IMG/VR virus record: IMGVR_UViG_3300025840_000238
Location: 1 to 24,294 of that record
Strand: one strand, 5' to 3'
Length of the DNA stretch: 24,294 bases
Source: a virus
Part shown: positions 12,801-24,294 of the stretch, one piece after another
Position numbering within the stretch: position 1 is the stretch's first letter
How the letters are laid out: each line of letters begins with the position of its first letter
The notes under the pieces: generated by a model
Databases searched by the model: none
What the model was told of the DNA's origin: nothing
Seen by the model: only the letters and a program-made list of their open reading frames with translations
Program-made: the position numbers and the translations under genes

Positions 12801-12843
12801 CATGAATATTGATGCAAAAATAGAAAGGACTGGTAGCAAATAA
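9823..12843 (+). CDS. Large internal virion (DNA ejection) protein
   Basis: The product is 1006 residues, the position and scale of T7 gp16-type core proteins. Residues 1-85 are polar and acidic. A helical middle carries WVEIWVNSRLMSPITHIVNT at about 367-386, a motif seen in internal proteins of many podophages. A second conserved block has FVPFYKTVTNIFLESSKRNP at about 583-602, then PGNKKERDAFFRNGYQAYSI and ARFEPISTFLA at about 690-706. Such proteins leave the capsid before the DNA and form the channel across the periplasm. No peptidoglycan-cleaving active site is evident here, unlike T7 gp16. It overlaps the previous gene by TAATG and the tail fiber gene by TAATG. Confidence 0.65.
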   Translation: MIPKDLPNKSIGEQTESTPNLDFLEKKEGTLADTEANNFPITTESDNLDAEGNALSKEELNQIENESLQEKEDRTLYAANFFKLPKKKTMTDVPYGTTKNERLDKQKEILNKIEGDVEIDPSTGSIILKEFEEGEVKYVDDLLEKFNLGTLTEAKKNTSTKFIFKELDTDANGVYSPGAFSDLVFKMFGDKIQKAKGGKISVDTVLSQAAELGRSDVYLKVFNKKPGEALPLAYSVRALVETKLLYTQLRKIAEKGATGAATEADKVEFYKVLRLYGHMLSQSAADISEGARKMRMTQEITKVNPELGISIEGAKSVTDWLSKNMNADFSAEGFQQISSHFLMLRPDQASKFAKQSLASKWVDGWVEIWVNSRLMSPITHIVNTVGNIGFNSLRLFEYTTAAALNKVPFLGSPDGVQFNEVLSMIKALKYGTKLGLDNAVEGFKQGAPTTKLDLPPRNSIGKQLAGKYEDTFLGTMFEYIGTAARVPGRLLVAEDEFMKGILFQVELERIATQRMNQAINNGLSKTDAEQIYIKTISDPDVSVINDVKASMLEGTFQQDLPPGVFKNIQGFMNEPAIKMFVPFYKTVTNIFLESSKRNPFLAGLMPSVRRDLSGANGPAKRQLAASKIITGAGLMYTFGNFAYGAADGSSNYIITGRAPGNKKERDAFFRNGYQAYSIGIRQDDGNFKFFSYARFEPISTFLAMAADMGYAMSRPDQYGYEQDENYQALFSAGTTWLYNYMGEQPFVSGIADISKAFNGLGGDDETKFINGMSAIVGQVMDATYGVAVNPTGTFSNYLIRMQDPKIYDTMISPDQADAGIFGLGAREDGGDIPLLVREFYKNLNKIHRQSPFFNPDLKPALNLWGEEMVGPEQGIINPIKILHKQGYNQIDDWLQTHGLGMSMPSKKFKRYIAMDGEQYHTLITLMNKEYNGKTMLSEMQEKMNSTTWLKYQNAPGGPLLGKQLDMLEGVKQKYIEKANKELVLLYPQLETAIMNIDAKIERTGSK

Positions 12844-15800
12844 TGGCAACATTTGATATTAACGAAGTAGCAAGACGAGCTCAGTATACATCTACTGGCC
12901 AGGCTGGTCCTTATGCTTTTAACTTCCAGGTCAATGCTGCATCTGAATTACAAGTATATAAAAACGATGCATTACAAACTGATAGTGTTAATTATAACGC
13001 AACACTAAATGCAGATGGTACTGGATCTATTACATTTATAGATAACTCTGGAATTGGTGGAGATGATTACACACCAGCTAATGGAGATCTAATTACTATT
13101 ATTGGTGATCAACCATTATCTAGAACAACAGTATTTCAAGTTGGCCAGGCGAACAATCCAGTAACACTAGAAACAGAATTTGATAATGTTGTTATTAGAC
13201 AACAACAGATTAAAGAAATAACTGACAGAGCTTTACAATTAAAACCAAGCACACCTAGAACAGTAACTGGATCTGGAACATCTGGTCCTATCTATTGGCC
13301 TTACGATGCTACACCAGCTAACAATGCATCAAGAGTTATTTCATATGACAGTAATGGTACTGGATTAGAGCTTGGACCAACAACTGCAAACTTAAATACA
13401 TTAGCATCAATTACATCTGATATTTCTACAGTAGCTGGTATTTCATCTGAAATACAAACAGTAGCTGCTGACGAAACCGATATTGGGGTTGTGGCAACAA
13501 ATATAAATTCAGTCAATACAGTAGCAACTAACATTAATGATGTAATCAAAGTAGCCGATGATTTGAACGAGGCTGTCTCTGAAGTTGAAACAGTTGCGAA
13601 TGATTTAAATGAGGCTGTATCTGAGATTGATACTGTTGGAACGAACATTGGAGTAATTCAAACAGTTGGTGATAGTACAAACATTGCAAACATTACAACA
13701 GTCGCTGGTGAGATTTCACCTACTAATAATATTTCTACTTTAGCAAATATCTCTGCTGATATTACAACACTTGCTAATACAAGTGGCTTAACAACTTTAG
13801 CTAACAATGCAGCAGATATTTCAACTGTAGCTGGGATCCAGGCTGATGTAACGGCTGTCGCAAATATTGATGCTGCTGTTAGTGCTGTGAATTCAAATTC
13901 TGCTAACATCAATGCTGTTAATGCTAACTCGACAAATATTAACACAGTCGCTACAGACTTATCTGGATCTAATACAATAGGAACAGTAGCTGCTGATTTA
14001 TCTGGATCTAATAATATTGGAACAGTTGCATCAAATCTTTCTAATGTAAATAATTTTGCTGAGACTTATCGTATCTCTGCAAGTCAGCCTACAACAAGTT
14101 TGGACATCGGGGATTTATGGTTCGACACAGCAAATTCGGTCATGAAAGTCTACTCGTCATCCGGTTGGATTACTGCTGCGTCTGCCGTGAATGGGACTGC
14201 TGCTCGGTTTAAGTATACTGCTACTGCATCACAGACAACATTTACTGGAGCTGATGATAATACAAATACCTTGGCCTACGATAGTGGGTTCATGGATGTG
14301 TACCTAAACGGAGTGAAGTTAGTTTCGGGTGCATCCAATGACTATGTCGCTACCAACGGGACCAGCATTATATTAAATTCTGGAGCTGCTGCGAATGATA
14401 TTTTAGAGGCCATTGCCTACGGAACATTTGAATTAACAAACTTCTCTATTAATGATGCTAATGATGTACAGACAACTGGTTTAGCAACTAATGATTTACT
14501 AAGATACGATGGAACAAATTTTGTACCAAAAAGTTTTGATGAGATTACACCAACACAAACAAGTAATGCTGGTAAGTTCTTAACTACTGATGGAACTAAC
14601 TCATCCTGGGGTACAGTTAATACAAATTTGGTAGCAGATACTACTCCACAATTAGGTGGTGACTTGGATGGTAACGGAAACACAATAGACTTAACTGGTA
14701 ATACTGAAAGTTTTGGATTACCAAGAGGTACAACTGCACAAGAACCAACAGCATCTACAGCAGAAGGTCATATTAGATACAACAATGATGATGATACAGT
14801 TTACTTTTCTAATGGTTCTAATTGGTTAAAAATTGCATCTGCTGTTCCTACATTAACAAATGTTACTGGAACAATTTATGAAACTTTACAATCAACATTA
14901 ACTCTAACTGGCACAAACTTTTTAGCTAGTAATTTAATAGTTACTTTTACAAGAAGTGGTACTGACTATAATCAAACTGTTACTCCAACTTCTGACACAT
15001 CTGCATCGGTAACAACACCATCGGGTTTAAATAGTGTTACAGCAAGTGGTGATGTTATAAGTATTAAAGTAACCAATAGTGATTTTGCATCAAGTAATAC
15101 TCAAACTGTTACTGTTTTTGGATTGCCTTCTGGTGGATCAATATCTAATAATGGTAATTATCGTGTTCACGCATTTACATCTTCTGGAACATTGACTGTT
15201 CCTTCTGGTTTTTCAACATCATCTTATTACTTAGTAACTGCTGGAGGTGGTGGTGCTGGTAACTCTTACTTTAATGCCACAAGAGGTGGTGGTGGTGGTG
15301 GAGCTGGAGGAGTTATTTATAACACATCTTACACTCTTGCTACTGGATCATACACAATAACTATTGGTGCTGGAGGCTCTGGTGGTGCCAATGAAAATTT
15401 AGGATCGGATGGATCTAACACTACTGCTTTTTCACAAACTGCTATTGGTGGTGGTGGAGGAGCAATTTTCTCTAATACAGCAGGTACAGGTTATGATGGT
15501 AGACCTGGTGGTTCTGGTGGAGGAGGCCGAGGATCTGGAACTGTAGGGGGTGCTGGTACAACTGGACAAGGTAATGCTGGAGGTCAAGGAGGAGATCAAA
15601 CCGGAGGTGGTGGAGGTGGAGGAGGTAAATCTCAAACTGGATTTGATACTCATCAAGTTGCTGGTGATGTTCCATCTGCTCATGATGGTGGTGATGGCAC
15701 AGATTACTCGTCTATTTTTGGAACAAGTTTAGGTGAAAGTGGATACTTCGGTGGAGGAGGTGCTGGTTCTAGTGGTGAAGATACAGGCATGACAAATAAT

Positions 15801-15980
15801 TTAACTGGTGCTGCTGGAGGCCTTGGAGGAGGTGGAAACTCTGAAGGTGTTAATGGTGGTACATTTGAAAATGGAGATGCTAATACTGGAGGTGGAGGAG
15901 GTGCCGGTCATGGTAGCACATCTTCTGGATCTGGTGGATCTGGTATAGTATTAATTGCTTATGACACAACAGCTTTATAG
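12843..15980 (+). CDS. Tail fiber with T7 gp17-like base and polyglycine tip
   Basis: The product is 1045 residues. Residues 1-150 form a T7 gp17-like base that docks on the tail (ARRAQYTSTGQAGPYAFNF, later QQQIKEITDRALQLKPS). Residues 180-410 are tandem beta/coil units built on I-x-TVA, including near-perfect 14- and 13-residue repeats. Residues 414-525 are a module common in marine fibers (IGDLWFDTANSVMKVY, YLNGVKLVSG-type strand). Near 630 is GTTAQEPTASTAEGHIRYN, and 668-758 resembles an IPT/TIG fold. Residues 760-1045 are a Gly-rich domain with runs of GGGGGAGG and GSGGSGIVLIAYD, probably a polyglycine-helix receptor-binding tip. The module at 14101-14425 has markedly different base composition. 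Confidence 0.82.
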   Translation: MATFDINEVARRAQYTSTGQAGPYAFNFQVNAASELQVYKNDALQTDSVNYNATLNADGTGSITFIDNSGIGGDDYTPANGDLITIIGDQPLSRTTVFQVGQANNPVTLETEFDNVVIRQQQIKEITDRALQLKPSTPRTVTGSGTSGPIYWPYDATPANNASRVISYDSNGTGLELGPTTANLNTLASITSDISTVAGISSEIQTVAADETDIGVVATNINSVNTVATNINDVIKVADDLNEAVSEVETVANDLNEAVSEIDTVGTNIGVIQTVGDSTNIANITTVAGEISPTNNISTLANISADITTLANTSGLTTLANNAADISTVAGIQADVTAVANIDAAVSAVNSNSANINAVNANSTNINTVATDLSGSNTIGTVAADLSGSNNIGTVASNLSNVNNFAETYRISASQPTTSLDIGDLWFDTANSVMKVYSSSGWITAASAVNGTAARFKYTATASQTTFTGADDNTNTLAYDSGFMDVYLNGVKLVSGASNDYVATNGTSIILNSGAAANDILEAIAYGTFELTNFSINDANDVQTTGLATNDLLRYDGTNFVPKSFDEITPTQTSNAGKFLTTDGTNSSWGTVNTNLVADTTPQLGGDLDGNGNTIDLTGNTESFGLPRGTTAQEPTASTAEGHIRYNNDDDTVYFSNGSNWLKIASAVPTLTNVTGTIYETLQSTLTLTGTNFLASNLIVTFTRSGTDYNQTVTPTSDTSASVTTPSGLNSVTASGDVISIKVTNSDFASSNTQTVTVFGLPSGGSISNNGNYRVHAFTSSGTLTVPSGFSTSSYYLVTAGGGGAGNSYFNATRGGGGGGAGGVIYNTSYTLATGSYTITIGAGGSGGANENLGSDGSNTTAFSQTAIGGGGGAIFSNTAGTGYDGRPGGSGGGGRGSGTVGGAGTTGQGNAGGQGGDQTGGGGGGGGKSQTGFDTHQVAGDVPSAHDGGDGTDYSSIFGTSLGESGYFGGGGAGSSGEDTGMTNNLTGAAGGLGGGGNSEGVNGGTFENGDANTGGGGGAGHGSTSSGSGGSGIVLIAYDTTAL

Positions 15981-15992
15981 AAAGGATAAATA

Positions 15993-16361
15993 ATGGCTCA
16001 TTATGCAAAAGTAAAAAATGGTAAAGTAGTTAATGTAATAGTTGCTGAACCAGAATTTTTTGCAACTTTTATTGATGACACACCAGGAGAATGGGTTCAA
16101 ACATCTTACAATACAGTTGGAGGTGTACATAAATTAGGAGGAACACCATTAAGAAAAAACTTTGCTGGTGTTGGTTATACTTACGATAAAACAAGAGATG
16201 CATTTATTCCACAAAAACCTTTTGCATCTTGGGTACTCAATGAAACAACTTGTTTATGGGAACCTCCTATTGTAAAACCAACTACAGGGAACTATGAATG
16301 GAATGAAGAATTATATCAAAGTGATAATACCCAGGGATGGGTGGAGGTAACGAATGACTAA
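15993..16361 (+). CDS. Small tail-fiber-associated conserved protein
   Basis: The product is 122 residues. It follows a pattern very common in cyanophages and other marine phages: HYAKVKNGKVVNVIVAEPEF at the start, WVQTSYNTVGGVH near 34-46, LRKNFAGVGYTYD near 53-65, and then PFASWVLNETTCLWEPP near 76-92. These proteins sit next to tail fiber genes, and their molecular role is not established; they are probably fiber accessory or chaperone-like structural proteins. Here it lies between two adhesin genes. It has an AAAGGA ribosome site and overlaps the second adhesin by 8 bases. No signal peptide or membrane segment is visible. Confidence 0.65.
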   Translation: MAHYAKVKNGKVVNVIVAEPEFFATFIDDTPGEWVQTSYNTVGGVHKLGGTPLRKNFAGVGYTYDKTRDAFIPQKPFASWVLNETTCLWEPPIVKPTTGNYEWNEELYQSDNTQGWVEVTND

Positions 16362-18003
16362 AGCGAGAGATATTGCTGACTTTAAATTTGAAAACATTAC
16401 CGATACTGGTACTGAAGGAACTAGAATTGCTAAGGGTACTACAGCTCAAAGAGGTACTACGCAAGGTCAAATTAGATTTAATACTGATTTAGGATTAGCT
16501 GAATACTATGATGGTACTGCTTTTAAAATTGTTGATACACCACCTTCTATTGTAAGTGTAGATAAAACAAATATTGAAAGTAGCACTTTACCAACAAACT
16601 TGGTTATTACTGGAACGAGTTTTAATAGTGCATCTGTAAAATTTATTGGTGCTGACGGAACAGAATATTCAAGTCCAAGTGTGACTACTAATTCATCAAC
16701 TCAAATCACAGCCCAGGTACCAGCAACTGTAACAAGTGATAATGAACCTTTTGATGTTAAAGTAATAAATGCATCTAGTCTTGCTAATACTTTAGAAGAT
16801 GCTTTTAATATAGATGCCTCACCAGAATTTTCAGTAGCTAGTGGTTCTTTAGGAACATTAGAAGATATTGACAGAGCTGCATCAAATTTAACTGCTGTTA
16901 CAGCAACAGATGATGAGGGAGACAGTATTACTTTCTCTGTAACTTCTGGAACAATTCCAACTGGATTAACTTTGAATTCTGATGGTACTTGGTCTGGAAC
17001 AGCAAATGCAGAAACTTCAACTACAACTTATACATTTACAGTTACAGCAAGTGATGGAACAAACACCTCAACAAGACAATACACAATCACAGTTGAGCAA
17101 CCAATAGCAACTGGTGGTACTACTCAAACTTATAATATTGGTGGAACAGATTATGTTTCTCACACTTTCTTATCTAGTGGAACATTTACATTAAACTCTA
17201 ATAAAACAGTTGATGTATTATTAGTAGGTGGTGGAGGAGCTGGTGCTGCACATACAACAGTCTCATCTACTGGAGGTGGAGGTGGAGGAGCCGGAGGTTT
17301 TAGAACTATTCAAATGTCTTTAACTGCTGGTTCATTTGCTGCAACAGTCGGAGGAGGTGGAAGTGCTGGTACTTCTGCTGATCCTGGTGGAGTGTTATCT
17401 TCAAATGGAGGTAATACTACATTTAATTCTTACTCAGCTCAAGGTGGTGGTAGAGGTGATGCTCGAACTGGTCAAAATGGAAGTAGAGTAGGAGATGGAG
17501 GTTCTGGAGGTGGTGCTGGATATGATTACCCAACTATAGTTGGATCTGGAAATACTCCATCAACAAGTCCATCACAAGGTAATAATGGAGGGCAAGGTTT
17601 TGGAGTTTCACCAAACAGTCCAAGTGAATACCCTAGTCTAACTGGATTTGCTGGAGGTGGTGGAGGAGGAGCCTCTGCTACTGGTGGAAATTGGAGAAAT
17701 GACGGAACCAATGTTGGTGGTGGTAACGGAGGTGCTGGTTCTCAAAATAATTATAGAACTGGAAGTAATCAATACTATGCTGCTGGAGGTGGGGGTGGCT
17801 CTGGAGGTGGTAATGGTACCTTTAATAATGTAGGAGGTACTGGTGGATCTAGCATTGGTGGTAATGGTGCTGGAGATACAACTGCTCCTACAAGTCCAAC
17901 TCAAAATACTGGATCTGGTGGAGGAGGATGTGGTGGAGCAACTAACTTATATAATCCTACAGCCGGTGCAGATGGAATTATAGTAATAAGGTATGCTGTG
18001 TAA
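16354..18003 (+). CDS. Second adhesin with IPT-like, cadherin-like and polyglycine domains
   Basis: The product is 549 residues. It begins TKARDIADFKFENITDTGTE, the start typical of marine phage fiber-tip proteins, then has GTTAQRGTTQGQIRFNTD at about 28-45. Residues 62-148 look like an IPT/TIG domain. Residues 150-250 look like a cadherin/He-PIG type repeat (VTATDDEGDSITFSVTSG and SDGTWSGTA). Residues 285-549 form a Gly-rich domain (VLLVGGGGAG, GGGGGGAGGF and many GGG runs) like that of the upstream fiber. It is probably a receptor-binding protein or fiber tip. A clean GGAGG ribosome site lies inside the end of the upstream gene. It shares the IPT plus polyglycine arrangement with the first fiber, suggesting paralogy or domain exchange. 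Confidence 0.72.
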   Translation: MTKARDIADFKFENITDTGTEGTRIAKGTTAQRGTTQGQIRFNTDLGLAEYYDGTAFKIVDTPPSIVSVDKTNIESSTLPTNLVITGTSFNSASVKFIGADGTEYSSPSVTTNSSTQITAQVPATVTSDNEPFDVKVINASSLANTLEDAFNIDASPEFSVASGSLGTLEDIDRAASNLTAVTATDDEGDSITFSVTSGTIPTGLTLNSDGTWSGTANAETSTTTYTFTVTASDGTNTSTRQYTITVEQPIATGGTTQTYNIGGTDYVSHTFLSSGTFTLNSNKTVDVLLVGGGGAGAAHTTVSSTGGGGGGAGGFRTIQMSLTAGSFAATVGGGGSAGTSADPGGVLSSNGGNTTFNSYSAQGGGRGDARTGQNGSRVGDGGSGGGAGYDYPTIVGSGNTPSTSPSQGNNGGQGFGVSPNSPSEYPSLTGFAGGGGGGASATGGNWRNDGTNVGGGNGGAGSQNNYRTGSNQYYAAGGGGGSGGGNGTFNNVGGTGGSSIGGNGAGDTTAPTSPTQNTGSGGGGCGGATNLYNPTAGADGIIVIRYAV

Positions 18004-21387: not shown

Positions 21388-21671
21388 TAATTACCAGTAG
21401 TATTCTCTTCTGGTTTTTTTAGCAACTCTATTTCTATTTTTTCTTTGTGTTTTTCAATCCAGTATTCCTCATATGGTCTGATATTAATTGTAGCTGTCTT
21501 ATGCATAACTTCTAAATCAATATCATCTGCTGAATAAAACTTCTGATGAGGATGACCTTCACTATCGTGTTGATCAAATGTAATTACAACTACATCATTC
21601 TCCCCATCAAATGCCTTAATCAATTCTTTTACAAACCATTTACTAAAACGAGATTTATAAACCTTAGCCAT
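21387..21671 (-). CDS. Hypothetical 94-residue protein
   Basis: I do not recognise this protein. It is 94 residues, with a basic start (MAKVYKSRFSKWFVKELIKAF), a beta-like middle (DVVVITFDQHDSEGHPHQKF), then TATINIRPYEEYWIEKHKEK and a polar tail ending TTGN. Histidine-rich DQHDSEGHPHQ could bind a metal, but no known motif is complete. There is no membrane segment. The start overlaps the end of the LexA-like gene by 8 bases (ATGGCTAA), preceded by a GAGG about 9 bases upstream. Its place after the HTH gene suggests an early accessory function. Confidence 0.55.
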   Translation of the reverse strand: MAKVYKSRFSKWFVKELIKAFDGENDVVVITFDQHDSEGHPHQKFYSADDIDLEVMHKTATINIRPYEEYWIEKHKEKIEIELLKKPEENTTGN

Positions 21672-21882
21672 CTTTCAATACCTCAATTCCTCTTGGTCTA
21701 GCTGGATGCACTTTGATGTAACCATCTCTCTCAAGCAGCCTTAACATTCTATGCACATTACTGTGAACACACTTCTTATGTTTAGCTATCTCTCTTAGAG
21801 TTGGTGGTACTCTATGTTTTTTTATATGATCAGTTATGAAATCAAAGATCTCAAGTTGTTTCTTAGTCAGCATTAGTGTCAT
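21664..21882 (-). CDS. LexA-type winged-helix DNA-binding protein without peptidase domain
   Basis: The product is 72 residues. LTKKQLEIFDFITDHIKKH, then VPPTLREIAKHKKCVHSNVH, then RMLRLLERDGYIKVHPARPR and GIEVL align well with the N-terminal DNA-binding domain of LexA (PPTxxEIA helix, recognition helix at about 38-49, wing, and RGIxVL end). The C-terminal Ser-Lys autopeptidase and dimerisation domain is absent, so it cannot be cleaved like LexA. It probably acts as a small transcription regulator of the phage or host SOS-type operators. The ribosome site AGGAGG lies 8 bases before the start and is embedded in the end of the ERF gene, so the two are co-translated. Confidence 0.75.
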   Translation of the reverse strand: MTLMLTKKQLEIFDFITDHIKKHRVPPTLREIAKHKKCVHSNVHRMLRLLERDGYIKVHPARPRGIEVLKDG

Positions 21883-22588
21883 TTGATATACCTCCTAATT
21901 TCTTTTTTTCATCAACGATATAATGCATAAGCATATCCCATTGACCTTTATCTAGATCCATTAACTTTTCGAATGCTGCTTTGTTTTCTTTTTCTAAAGC
22001 AATTAAGTCATGGACTTTTTCTGCATCAGTCATCTCTTTATTCTGAAGAGTTTGTTTTACAGAAGTTTTGATACTGTTAACCCAGACTGTCATCTTTCTT
22101 TTTTGATCAGCCATAACTTTTTCGTTATGAGTATTTGAGTTACCATCATCATCTTCACTTGGTAATCCGTAGATTGCCTGGAGTGAATATCTTTTTGCAT
22201 AAGTAATAGCAGATCCAAGGGCCTGGCTATCATCGTATCTATTATTCTTTGGAACCACCGGGTACCTTGAAGTTATAACTGTATCACTATCTTTATGCAT
22301 TAGACTGGTCCTTACATACATTGTAGGAACTACAGCTCCCTCTAGTACATCCTTCTCAAAGTCTATGCATTGAGTAAATGCCAATCCATACTTAGCACCT
22401 TCATTCGCAGCAGCTATTACATCTTCTAGTGATGCGTAGTTAGATTTAAAGAATGGATTTTTACTAGATTTAATTGCTGCGTTAGCCTCACTCTGAAATT
22501 GTGAGAGAGCATCAACAACTGATTTAGTGTTGTGTTGGTTCTTCATCGTCATCTTCTCCTTCGTCTCTTTCGTTTCTTGTTGTGTCAT
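21863..22588 (-). CDS. erf: ERF-family single-strand annealing protein
   Basis: The product is 241 residues, close to the family's usual 200-240. Signature blocks are NPFFKSNYASLEDVI (about 44-58), GLAFTQ (68-73) and QALGSAITYAKRYSLQAIYG (122-141), then LPSEDDDGN. ERF proteins anneal complementary single strands in phage recombination and genome circularisation or repair. The start at 22588 has a strong AAGGAGG site 8-9 bases upstream. Internal Met codons at residues 13 and 15 are alternatives, the latter with its own GGAG. The first 65 bases overlap the 92-residue gene in another frame. The nearby YqaJ-type exonuclease is the expected partner. Confidence 0.88.
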   Translation of the reverse strand: MTQQETKETKEKMTMKNQHNTKSVVDALSQFQSEANAAIKSSKNPFFKSNYASLEDVIAAANEGAKYGLAFTQCIDFEKDVLEGAVVPTMYVRTSLMHKDSDTVITSRYPVVPKNNRYDDSQALGSAITYAKRYSLQAIYGLPSEDDDGNSNTHNEKVMADQKRKMTVWVNSIKTSVKQTLQNKEMTDAEKVHDLIALEKENKAAFEKLMDLDKGQWDMLMHYIVDEKKKLGGISNDTNAD

Positions 22589-22802
22589 TTTTTATGTCCT
22601 CCTTTATGACATTGATTGTTAATACTTTGTTTTGTAATTGCATGAACTCAAATGCTGTTTGGCCCATGACTTCAATGATCTCTTCCAGGAACTGCTGCTC
22701 AATATCAAAACCAGTTTTCTGTAAAATTTTTTCTCGCAACATTTTAGCTGTGAGTTTACGAGCTGTGATATAAGCATTGAACCATTGGAAATCATCTTGC
22801 AT
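22524..22802 (-). CDS. Hypothetical acidic-tailed protein between exonuclease and annealing protein
   Basis: I do not recognise this 92-residue protein. Residues 1-70 are helical (QWFNAYITARKLTAKMLREK, then FLEEIIEVMGQTAFEFMQLQ). The C-terminus is highly acidic (ERDEGEDDDEEPTQH), reminiscent of tails that in single-strand-binding proteins recruit partners, though no OB fold is evident. It lies between the exonuclease and ERF genes and overlaps both: 11 bases with the exonuclease end and 65 bases with the ERF start. The acidic tail is encoded in the ERF overlap. A role in loading or regulating the recombinase pair is a guess from position. Confidence 0.55.
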   Translation of the reverse strand: MQDDFQWFNAYITARKLTAKMLREKILQKTGFDIEQQFLEEIIEVMGQTAFEFMQLQNKVLTINVIKEDIKNDTTRNERDEGEDDDEEPTQH

Positions 22803-23772
22803 CCTTTATACTAAACCTCCTCATGACAATAGGATCAGCACCAGGTACTTCTACCATCTTGGTTTTTTTTCTACTCATAGTCTTATGATTAATTATAAAA
22901 CCATTAAAAGAAACTACCTCATGATCCTTCATGATAGATTTTATAGCCTTAGATGCCTCATCTTTATTTTCTTTAGCATCCTTATAAGTTTTATCTGCGT
23001 TGATATATTCCTCAATCAATTCAGATAACATATTGTTACCATCCATATTTACTGGATCTAGATTTCCATTACCTTTGTAGATCTTGGATGCCTCTTCAGT
23101 AGTCTCTGGTGGATACCAATAGTCTTTACCTTCTAAGATCCCATCAAATCTATTCCAGAAATCTGTAGCTGCATTAATGATGTCATTACACATCTCAGTA
23201 TTTCTTTGATAAACAAACCATTGCAACTCCCATCCTTTAACTAATCTAACTAGGATGCCCCAGGTAGATCCAGTACAAAGCATCTGCTGTTGTAATTGAT
23301 AAATGTTTAATGGGTATACGGGATCATCGGCAGATCCAGAGTAATTCTTGATTTCAACTGGACCACTATCTGAAAGAACCATTGTTGATTTGTTGTGATC
23401 AGTCAATTCAATCTTACCACTTTTAATAGTTAAAAGATTATCTAAAGAACTGCCGAGTTTCCCATTGTCTAATGAGTACAAGTTGGCCTTCTCCGGAACA
23501 GAGATTTTAAATTTGGCCTTCTGATCGATTGCTATGGATTGTAACTCATCGACAAACATTTGAGTTATGACTGGTTCCAATGCTTGTCCAGCCTTAACCT
23601 TTGGATTGTTAGCTAAGTCATTCTTAGCCTCCTTCCCTTGATACTCATTTAGAGCATCTTCCAAAACCTCGTTAGGAGTTTTGAAACCTTTTATGCCAGG
23701 GATCAAAGATCCAACTGTACTGGCACCTAATTCTTTTCTTTTGTAAGAAGTTTTTCTACCACTATCTTTCAT
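22792..23772 (-). CDS. YqaJ-type phage recombination exonuclease
   Basis: Starting at 23772 the product is 326 residues. The start is chosen because AGGAGG lies 8 bases upstream (23781-23786); a longer frame to 23829 would add an unlikely hydrophobic leader. Motifs of the PD-(D/E)xK YqaJ fold are present: GASTVGSLIPG (16-26), AGQALEPVI with Glu66, SSLDN with Asp111, PVEIKNYSG with Glu140 and Lys142, and YQLQQQM (158-164). The family degrades one strand of double-stranded DNA ends to give single strands for annealing, here presumably by ERF. The C-terminal 100 residues include a charged coiled region (YINADKTYKDAKENKDEASK). Its start is coupled to the preceding small membrane gene, whose last codons contain the ribosome site. 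Confidence 0.85.
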   Translation of the reverse strand: MKDSGRKTSYKRKELGASTVGSLIPGIKGFKTPNEVLEDALNEYQGKEAKNDLANNPKVKAGQALEPVITQMFVDELQSIAIDQKAKFKISVPEKANLYSLDNGKLGSSLDNLLTIKSGKIELTDHNKSTMVLSDSGPVEIKNYSGSADDPVYPLNIYQLQQQMLCTGSTWGILVRLVKGWELQWFVYQRNTEMCNDIINAATDFWNRFDGILEGKDYWYPPETTEEASKIYKGNGNLDPVNMDGNNMLSELIEEYINADKTYKDAKENKDEASKAIKSIMKDHEVVSFNGFIINHKTMSRKKTKMVEVPGADPIVMRRFSIKDAR

Positions 23773-23773
23773 A

Positions 23774-23995
23774 TTAAAATCCTCCTGGTACATAATAATA
23801 ATAACAACTGTCGACCATGACACAGCCAACTACTACTGCTGCTATCAAAGCTGCAAGACAAAATAAAAATGCAATCATCTCTACAACACCTATTAAGATT
23901 TCTTTAATACTCATTTTGTAAACACATTGTTTATCTTCTGTGTTCACTTTAGTCATGAACTGTTGCTTGAATACATGAACAATACTAGACCACAT
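23774..23995 (-). CDS. Small single-pass membrane protein
   Basis: The product is 73 residues. After a polar start of about 30 residues there is one long hydrophobic segment (ILIGVVEMIAFLFCLAALIA, then AVVVGCVMV; about 33-61), followed by a short Tyr-rich end, DSCYYYYVPGGF. The start at 23995 is supported by GGAGG about 6 bases upstream, lying in the end of the recombinase gene. A shorter form from Met28 would still keep the membrane segment. Function is unknown. Expression is tied to early recombination genes, and its last codons carry the ribosome site of the exonuclease. A superinfection or envelope role is possible but not shown. Confidence 0.6.
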   Translation of the reverse strand: MWSSIVHVFKQQFMTKVNTEDKQCVYKMSIKEILIGVVEMIAFLFCLAALIAAVVVGCVMVDSCYYYYVPGGF

Positions 23996-23996
23996 A

Positions 23997-24294
23997 TTAT
24001 ACCTCCACTCTTTCTAGGACATTTTTAACTGTTGTAGGGTACCAAACTTTGTCCTGGTAAGTTTTAACACCACGATCATTCAAGGCATTAGCTAAACCAG
24101 ACAATGTACTGATGCCCGTAGCTCTAATGCCAGAAATAATTTCTGAAATATTTTTTGCGTACTGATTTGCATTAGCCTTAGAAGTTTCATGACCTCTAAC
24201 TCTAACTACATCTAAGTTAGTACGATTGCCTAACAATTTACCTTCTGCTTTTAATCTTGTTAATGCAGCCTTGGTACGATTTGAAATATTAATT
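23997..24294 (-). CDS. Serine recombinase (resolvase/invertase family), C-terminal part, partial
   Basis: The frame runs off the right edge, so the apparent TTG start at 24236 is internal. The visible 98 residues begin INISNRTKAALTRLKAEGKL and continue LGNRT, which is the end of the long E helix in small serine recombinases (family pattern ISERTKxxLxxAKxxGxxLG). Then comes a helix-turn-helix-like domain: ISEIISGIRATGISTLSGLA, then NALNDRGVKTYQDKVWYPTT and VKNVLERV. The catalytic serine would be about 100 residues upstream, outside the window. Such enzymes act in phage integration, inversion or resolution. The stop is 1 base from the next start. Which role it has here cannot be told without the rest. 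Confidence 0.8.
   Translation of the reverse strand, partial: INISNRTKAALTRLKAEGKLLGNRTNLDVVRVRGHETSKANANQYAKNISEIISGIRATGISTLSGLANALNDRGVKTYQDKVWYPTTVKNVLERVEV

Follow-up and report, generated by a model that had tools for sequence, protein, structure and literature searches.

The window, by which we mean the whole stretch analysed, is a virus contig of 24,294 bases whose right-hand end falls inside an open reading frame on the minus strand. This frame encodes the C-terminal part of a small serine recombinase, here called REC, and the N-terminal catalytic half lies beyond the window. The features of the operon are as follows.

23997..24293, minus strand: REC (small serine recombinase), 3' part, 98 codons; end of the E-helix and C-terminal helix-turn-helix (HTH) domain
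23774..23995, minus strand: small ORF of 73 aa between REC and the exonuclease, kept in most relatives
22792..23829, minus strand: YqaJ/RecE-like exonuclease (PF09588, 23.7 bits, over the cut-off; PHROG 434, E = 8.6e-33)
22524..22802, minus strand: 92-aa ORF between the exonuclease and ERF, no PHROG match
21863..22588, minus strand: ERF single-strand annealing protein (PF04404, E = 7e-24; PHROG 155, E = 4.7e-36)
21664..21882, minus strand: LexA-type DNA-binding domain, 72 aa (PF01726, E = 5.4e-15)

The first-pass annotation had described an early operon in which a serine recombinase is followed by an exonuclease/annealing pair and a LexA-type regulator. The order REC, small ORF, exonuclease, 92-aa ORF, ERF and LexA-type HTH was confirmed, with the refinement that the 72-aa protein is a DNA-binding domain only, no peptidase domain being found in it. 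Because contigs of many metagenomes show this gene order, a chimeric contig, which the annotation had considered, could be ruled out. The REC fragment scores 22.5 bits with PF07508 (cut-off 21.1) and 22.7 bits with PF20552, which is under the cut-off of 27, and its PHROG matches are to integrase (2.7e-6) and DNA invertase (6e-4). A profile search of the window's own record gave no match to the catalytic domain PF00239.

The complete recombinase in related contigs

The REC fragment is encoded at 70-100% identity by 38 IMG/VR loci, and in 33 of the 37 examined (the truncated L029 was omitted) the N-terminal motif xALVRVST is reached. Full-length REC of the window's family has ~212 aa and starts xNIVALVRVSTDKQ, and lengths of 212-239 aa were found across the full-length relatives listed. 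PF00239 was matched in all 18 records tested, each at 4.2e-20 or better, by the full-length REC P0002 with E = 7e-20, and in 22 of a second 38 records, some of which had been picked for carrying PF00239. The tyrosine integrase domain PF00589 was matched in none of these records (0/18 and 0/38, 56 in all). Residues R7, S9, Q18, S40, R48, R72 and R75 are invariant across 33 diverse RECs, and the Ser and Arg residues expected to be catalytic are among them; in the window's family R72 follows a Ser, as it does in TnpX (2mhc). The class read from the fragment is thus borne out by PF07508 in the window and PF00239 in relatives, and the related contigs supply both the catalytic serine (S9) and, from the N-terminal motif onwards, the full length.

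REC is under purifying selection, with dN/dS of 0.08-0.26 in 16 of 16 pairs compared. The folds nearest to an AlphaFold2 model of REC (pLDDT 87.6, pTM 0.54) are the catalytic domains of Sin resolvase, and the model places helices 178-187 and 200-211 in a C-terminal HTH DNA-binding domain. This domain gives weak matches to PF20552 and PF07508, the cut-off of the latter being passed by the fragment and just missed by the full-length protein. Among the PHROGs, full-length REC matches 'DNA invertase' best, and PHROG 95 'integrase' as well. With its catalytic domain, catalytic Ser and Arg residues and C-terminal HTH, REC has the composition of a small serine recombinase of the resolvase/invertase type. 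Large serine phage integrases exceed ~450 aa and combine recombinase, zinc-ribbon and coiled-coil parts, and the REC relatives, at less than 240 aa, fall outside that class.

The phage clade and its genome ends

Gene order is conserved in the eight contigs compared, where a leftward replication/terminase block is divergent from the REC-exonuclease-ERF genes. The block contains an O-like/HTH_36 replication initiator (rep), a DnaA-C-domain protein, DUF3310, an ORF without Pfam or PHROG match that we label ssb-like, and both terminase subunits. One 178-aa protein of this block (L050:2702-3235, minus strand) carries a DNA-binding domain like domain IV of DnaA (PF08299, E = 3.6e-16), which suggests that the phage may use or compete for DnaA boxes.

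The late genes are collinear and on a single strand in the contigs compared, and the tail-fibre genes differ between relatives. Two tail-fibre-like ORFs of the window (12843-15980 and 16354-18003) have similar glycine-rich domains at their ends, which could allow homologous exchange between the two. In the region upstream of REC, hypervariable small genes (L001-L037; for example L004:2834-3036 and L037:221-680) share exact junctions at their ends, AAGGAGGCTGCRTAATG (where the protein ends in KEAA) or AAAGGAGGACCARTAATG (where it ends in KEDQ), and one and the same small gene occurs in different subclades. This run looks like a swappable early-gene cassette region, perhaps for anti-defence.

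The nearest isolate is the OM43/Methylophilales phage MEP301 (MW452941), with 68% identity in the terminase and 52% in the nozzle. The SAR11 host assumed in the first-pass annotation is therefore unproven, the nearest isolate being one that infects OM43/Methylophilales. Its label 'T7-like' is doubtful as well: T7-type RNA polymerase (PF00940) was matched in 0 of 16 records, an absence that we do not take as proof because the control set was equally silent.

Circular genome maps occur among the REC-bearing relatives. Within a set of twelve contigs of 32-39 kb, G047 has an exact 99-bp end overlap, six (G020, G022, G026, G028, G044 and G046) have approximate ones and five (G023, G025, G027, G045 and G049) have none. 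Because the overlaps occur at different places, there are no fixed genome ends; fixed cohesive ends are ruled out, and the overlaps do not distinguish cos from pac.

A candidate recombination site 3' of rep

In REC-bearing phages one dyad of ~36 bp closely follows rep on its 3' side, ahead of the ssb-like/terminase genes. The window ends short of this region, and the candidate site is known from its relatives. When the rep to ssb-like interval was compared in 16 contigs of the window's family, the dyad TTATAAAnnGTAAACG-AA-CCTTTACnnTTTATAA stood out as the one conserved element amid otherwise diverged non-coding DNA. The equivalent place is occupied by GGCTAAACG-nn-CGTTTAGC in MEP301-like relatives (in MEP301 itself the dyad 3' of rep is GCTAAAGGGACGTTTAGC), by another dyad type, ATAGCTATTAGG/TCTTTTAGCTAT, in distant relatives, and by TGTACAAAAnnnAnACG-AA-CGTATGGGTTTTGTACA in a group that we call freshwater from the company of its contigs, not from metadata. 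The central dinucleotide, which does not count in the palindrome score, is AA, TT, CC, GT or GA and is non-palindromic in 38 of 38 sites; the same holds for all 17 that remain when the RECs are dereplicated at 80% identity. In each of the 10 records checked, several of them fragments, the dyad occurs once.

Serine recombinases cut their crossover sites to leave 2-nt 3' overhangs (PMC9943657). A dyad of ~36 bp with a non-palindromic two-base centre is what a crossover site bound by a serine recombinase dimer looks like. A search for accessory half-sites within 250 bp of the dyad found none (best extra 11.0/17 against a background of 11.2/17); the search covered half-sites like those of the dyad, and accessory sites for a different protein are possible. 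A tract rich in C or G, with a CACAATTTTTTTGC-type sequence after it (L050:1650-1810 and equivalents), separates the dyad from the ssb-like/terminase genes in REC-bearing phages, and most REC-less ones have it too; it is a candidate packaging (cos/pac) or origin element.

Association of the site with REC

A significant dyad, as judged by palindrome score against dinucleotide shuffles, was found in 37 of 59 loci with REC and in 0 of 19 loci without it (Fisher p = 4e-7, with the qualification that related phages are not independent). Four REC-bearing loci (L009, L013, L018 and L029) had been dropped from the original 63 as mis-anchored, their 'rep' match not being rep, and L202, probably mis-anchored, was retained among the 19. 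The automatic test called nothing significant in the other 22 correctly anchored REC-bearing loci, some of which show a weaker dyad on inspection and others none. A CAATTTT-type element, as defined by the script's pattern, is present in 14 of the 19 REC-less loci, so this landmark generally persists where the dyad was not found.

The half-sites of the dyad co-vary with the DNA-binding domain of REC more than with Rep. Across 38 loci, site similarity correlates with the REC C-terminal domain at 0.56, with the catalytic domain at 0.41 and with Rep at 0.34 (L259, whose best dyad is a C-tract, was left out). The partial correlation of the site with the C-terminal domain given Rep is 0.48 (0/500 permutations), against 0.08 for Rep given the C-terminal domain (59/500); given the catalytic domain it is 0.43, and the reverse is -0.01. 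Dereplication at 90, 80 and 70% lowers the value given Rep to 0.39, 0.32 and 0.25; at 80% it is reached in 4/1000 permutations, compared with 0.10 (164/1000) for Rep given the C-terminal domain, and at 70% the partial correlations of REC (0.25) and Rep (0.23) are about equal. When the pattern CTAAACGNNCGTTTAG was run over the whole collection, 4 of 65 new contigs had REC, and a scrambled control gave 0 of 56, a difference short of significance (p = 0.12). In two viral contigs of ~90 kb (L339:7111-8267 and L359:343-1499) a serine recombinase gene lies 395 bp away from CTAAACGNNCGTTTAG; an unrelated phage may here carry the enzyme-site pair too.

Homologues on plasmids and in another phage

Recombinases 31-35% identical to REC are encoded on plasmids of 4-11 kb. 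Out of 157 records we examined six plasmids (pDMC2, pP18_i, Leisingera unnamed2, pDSM109990_g, pSM103mini and pH8NP1), and in four of these the top dyad, of 34-36 bp with a non-palindromic centre (TT, GA or AA), lies upstream of the recombinase gene. The dyad of pDMC2 is perfect (17/17, core CTAAACG-TT-CGTTTAG) and 39 bp upstream; two roseobacter plasmids share one 14/17 dyad, placed at 71 bp in one and at 364 bp in the other, and pDSM109990_g has a 12/17 dyad at 45 bp, a score that whole-plasmid shuffles reach too. No convincing dyad was found in the other two (weak in pSM103mini, none in pH8NP1). The plasmid site is thus beside the recombinase gene, whereas the phage site is some kilobases away from it, 3' of rep.

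The closest protein in a phage record, at 32%, is the recombinase of Microcystis phage Mwe-JY31, a phage unrelated to the REC phages in which the site, unlike theirs, adjoins the gene: a 15/17 dyad, TTAAACG-CT-CGTTTAA, lies 117 bp upstream, and repeat-derived dyads elsewhere in the genome score equally. Mwe-JY31 also has several dispersed TAATTACATAAATA-type palindromes of iteron-like appearance (L061:5599, 9882, 12165 and 12177). Relatives of the terminase gave two distant matches on plasmids, and the one viewed, a Bradyrhizobium plasmid, has a tyrosine recombinase.

Proposed function and alternatives

In our judgement, REC is probably an active small serine recombinase of the plasmid type, with one simple ~36-bp site per genome between rep and the ssb-like/terminase genes. 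The single dyad argues against simple inversion and leaves multimer resolution, circularisation or integration. That REC inverts DNA to switch tail fibres would agree with the best PHROG of the full-length protein and with the variable tail-fibre genes, and is nevertheless highly improbable, as the dyad has no inverted copy in the 10 records checked and the late genes keep their order on one strand in the contigs compared; in the window, the 25 longest inverted pairs, taken without a control, are only 23-42 nt long and 70-87% complementary. This reading was rejected, and the switching of a DNA segment, one of three roles that had been floated for the enzyme, is not supported. Equally hard to credit is that REC drives cassette exchange in the hypervariable region upstream of its gene. 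Close relatives do exchange small genes in the run from the divergent promoter to REC, and these genes share exact junctions, but the junctions are unlike the dyad half-sites by eye, and they span ribosome-binding sites, as we would expect of ERF-mediated exchange at short shared sequence; REC sites at the mapped junctions were therefore rejected.

Integration deserves more weight, although we think it unlikely that REC is a small phage integrase, the dyad its attP and the phages temperate. The dyad is single, REC sits in the early operon beside the exonuclease and ERF, PHROG 95 matches it, and PF00589 revealed no other integrase in the 56 records. Against this, REC is short and without the zinc-ribbon/coiled-coil part of phage serine integrases, its homologues are on small plasmids, S24 peptidase and HTH_3 over the cut-off were each found in 0 of 16 records, and one GTDB scan for prophages with the window-type REC gave no close relative, only a 30% archaeal match. 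Lysogeny by integration, which had also been proposed for this phage, is possible and drew no support from the PF00589, S24 and GTDB searches. The dyad might instead be an origin or operator for Rep, the DnaA-domain-IV protein or a repressor, with REC acting elsewhere, and its position immediately 3' of rep and the PF08299 protein encoded nearby speak for this. We consider it quite unlikely, since the dyad was not found in the 19 REC-less relatives that retain rep, co-varies more with the REC DNA-binding domain than with Rep, and has counterparts adjoining recombinase genes on plasmids.

The plasmid relatives, together with the lack of tyrosine integrase, S24, HTH_3 over the cut-off and prophages in these searches, favour multimer resolution or circularisation over integration. 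A Cre/lox-like role, that is, monomer resolution or circularisation, is the best reading of REC and its candidate site, rather than tail-fibre switching and probably rather than classical integration. REC would bind the dyad as a dimer, two dyad copies would synapse, strands would be cut at the central dinucleotide, and exchange would proceed by subunit rotation. Because each genome carries one dyad, partners would meet only in dimers, multimers or terminally redundant DNA, and the predicted products are monomer circles. REC would act early, beside the exonuclease-ERF pair, which may itself make and repair multimers and circles by annealing; a late-active resolvase would work against concatemer packaging. 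The first-pass annotation thus stands in its enzyme class, its operon and its suggestion of multimer resolution, now the best-supported reading given one dyad per genome and the plasmid homologues; segment switching is not supported, and integration-based lysogeny is possible and unsupported. More tentatively, marine and freshwater podophages of a large clade, for the most part uncultured, may use a plasmid-derived serine recombinase and one lox-like site by the replication/packaging region to circularise or monomerise the genome, possibly for a plasmid-like persistent state, enzyme and site evolving and being gained or lost together.

Comparison with known systems

In the open-access literature, the combination of pelagiphage and serine recombinase led only to the MEP301 paper, and no phage serine-resolvase system for multimer resolution or circularisation like REC and its dyad was found by title and abstract. 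The enzyme class is known; the REC-site pair in a phage clade and its lox-like role appear new within the literature searched. MEP301 encodes a small serine recombinase (ORF4, gp04) in the equivalent slot before the YqaJ exonuclease and ERF, 24% identical to the window-type REC. The domain named in the MEP301 paper is one that small serine recombinases do not need. That paper (PMC8024684), in the part available, judges the recombinase possibly non-functional and describes no recombination site for gp04. For a gene once unexplained in aquatic phages, MEP301 included, there is now a prediction that pairs enzyme with site and is open to a simple laboratory assay.

The Sin and Tn3 (gamma-delta) resolvases share their catalytic domain and fold with REC. 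Those enzymes depend on accessory sites adjacent to the crossover site (PMC9943657), and no counterpart was found within 250 bp of the REC-phage dyad; a res-like system with accessory sites was rejected in the absence of extra half-sites near it. Cre is a tyrosine recombinase whose site has a longer spacer than the REC dyad, and the two enzymes have no sequence relation and unrelated chemistry. The likeness is in the arrangement, as P1 and the REC phages both have one site per genome; Cre-loxP keeps circular P1 monomeric (PMC2409434), and for REC, resolution in vivo is predicted. If our reading is true, it would suggest that phages of streamlined bacteria pass through a stage that is circular or plasmid-like, and would provide several recombinase/site families, diverged in nature and simple in their sites, that would also be useful as tools; REC would be the serine-recombinase counterpart of Cre-lox in small podophages.
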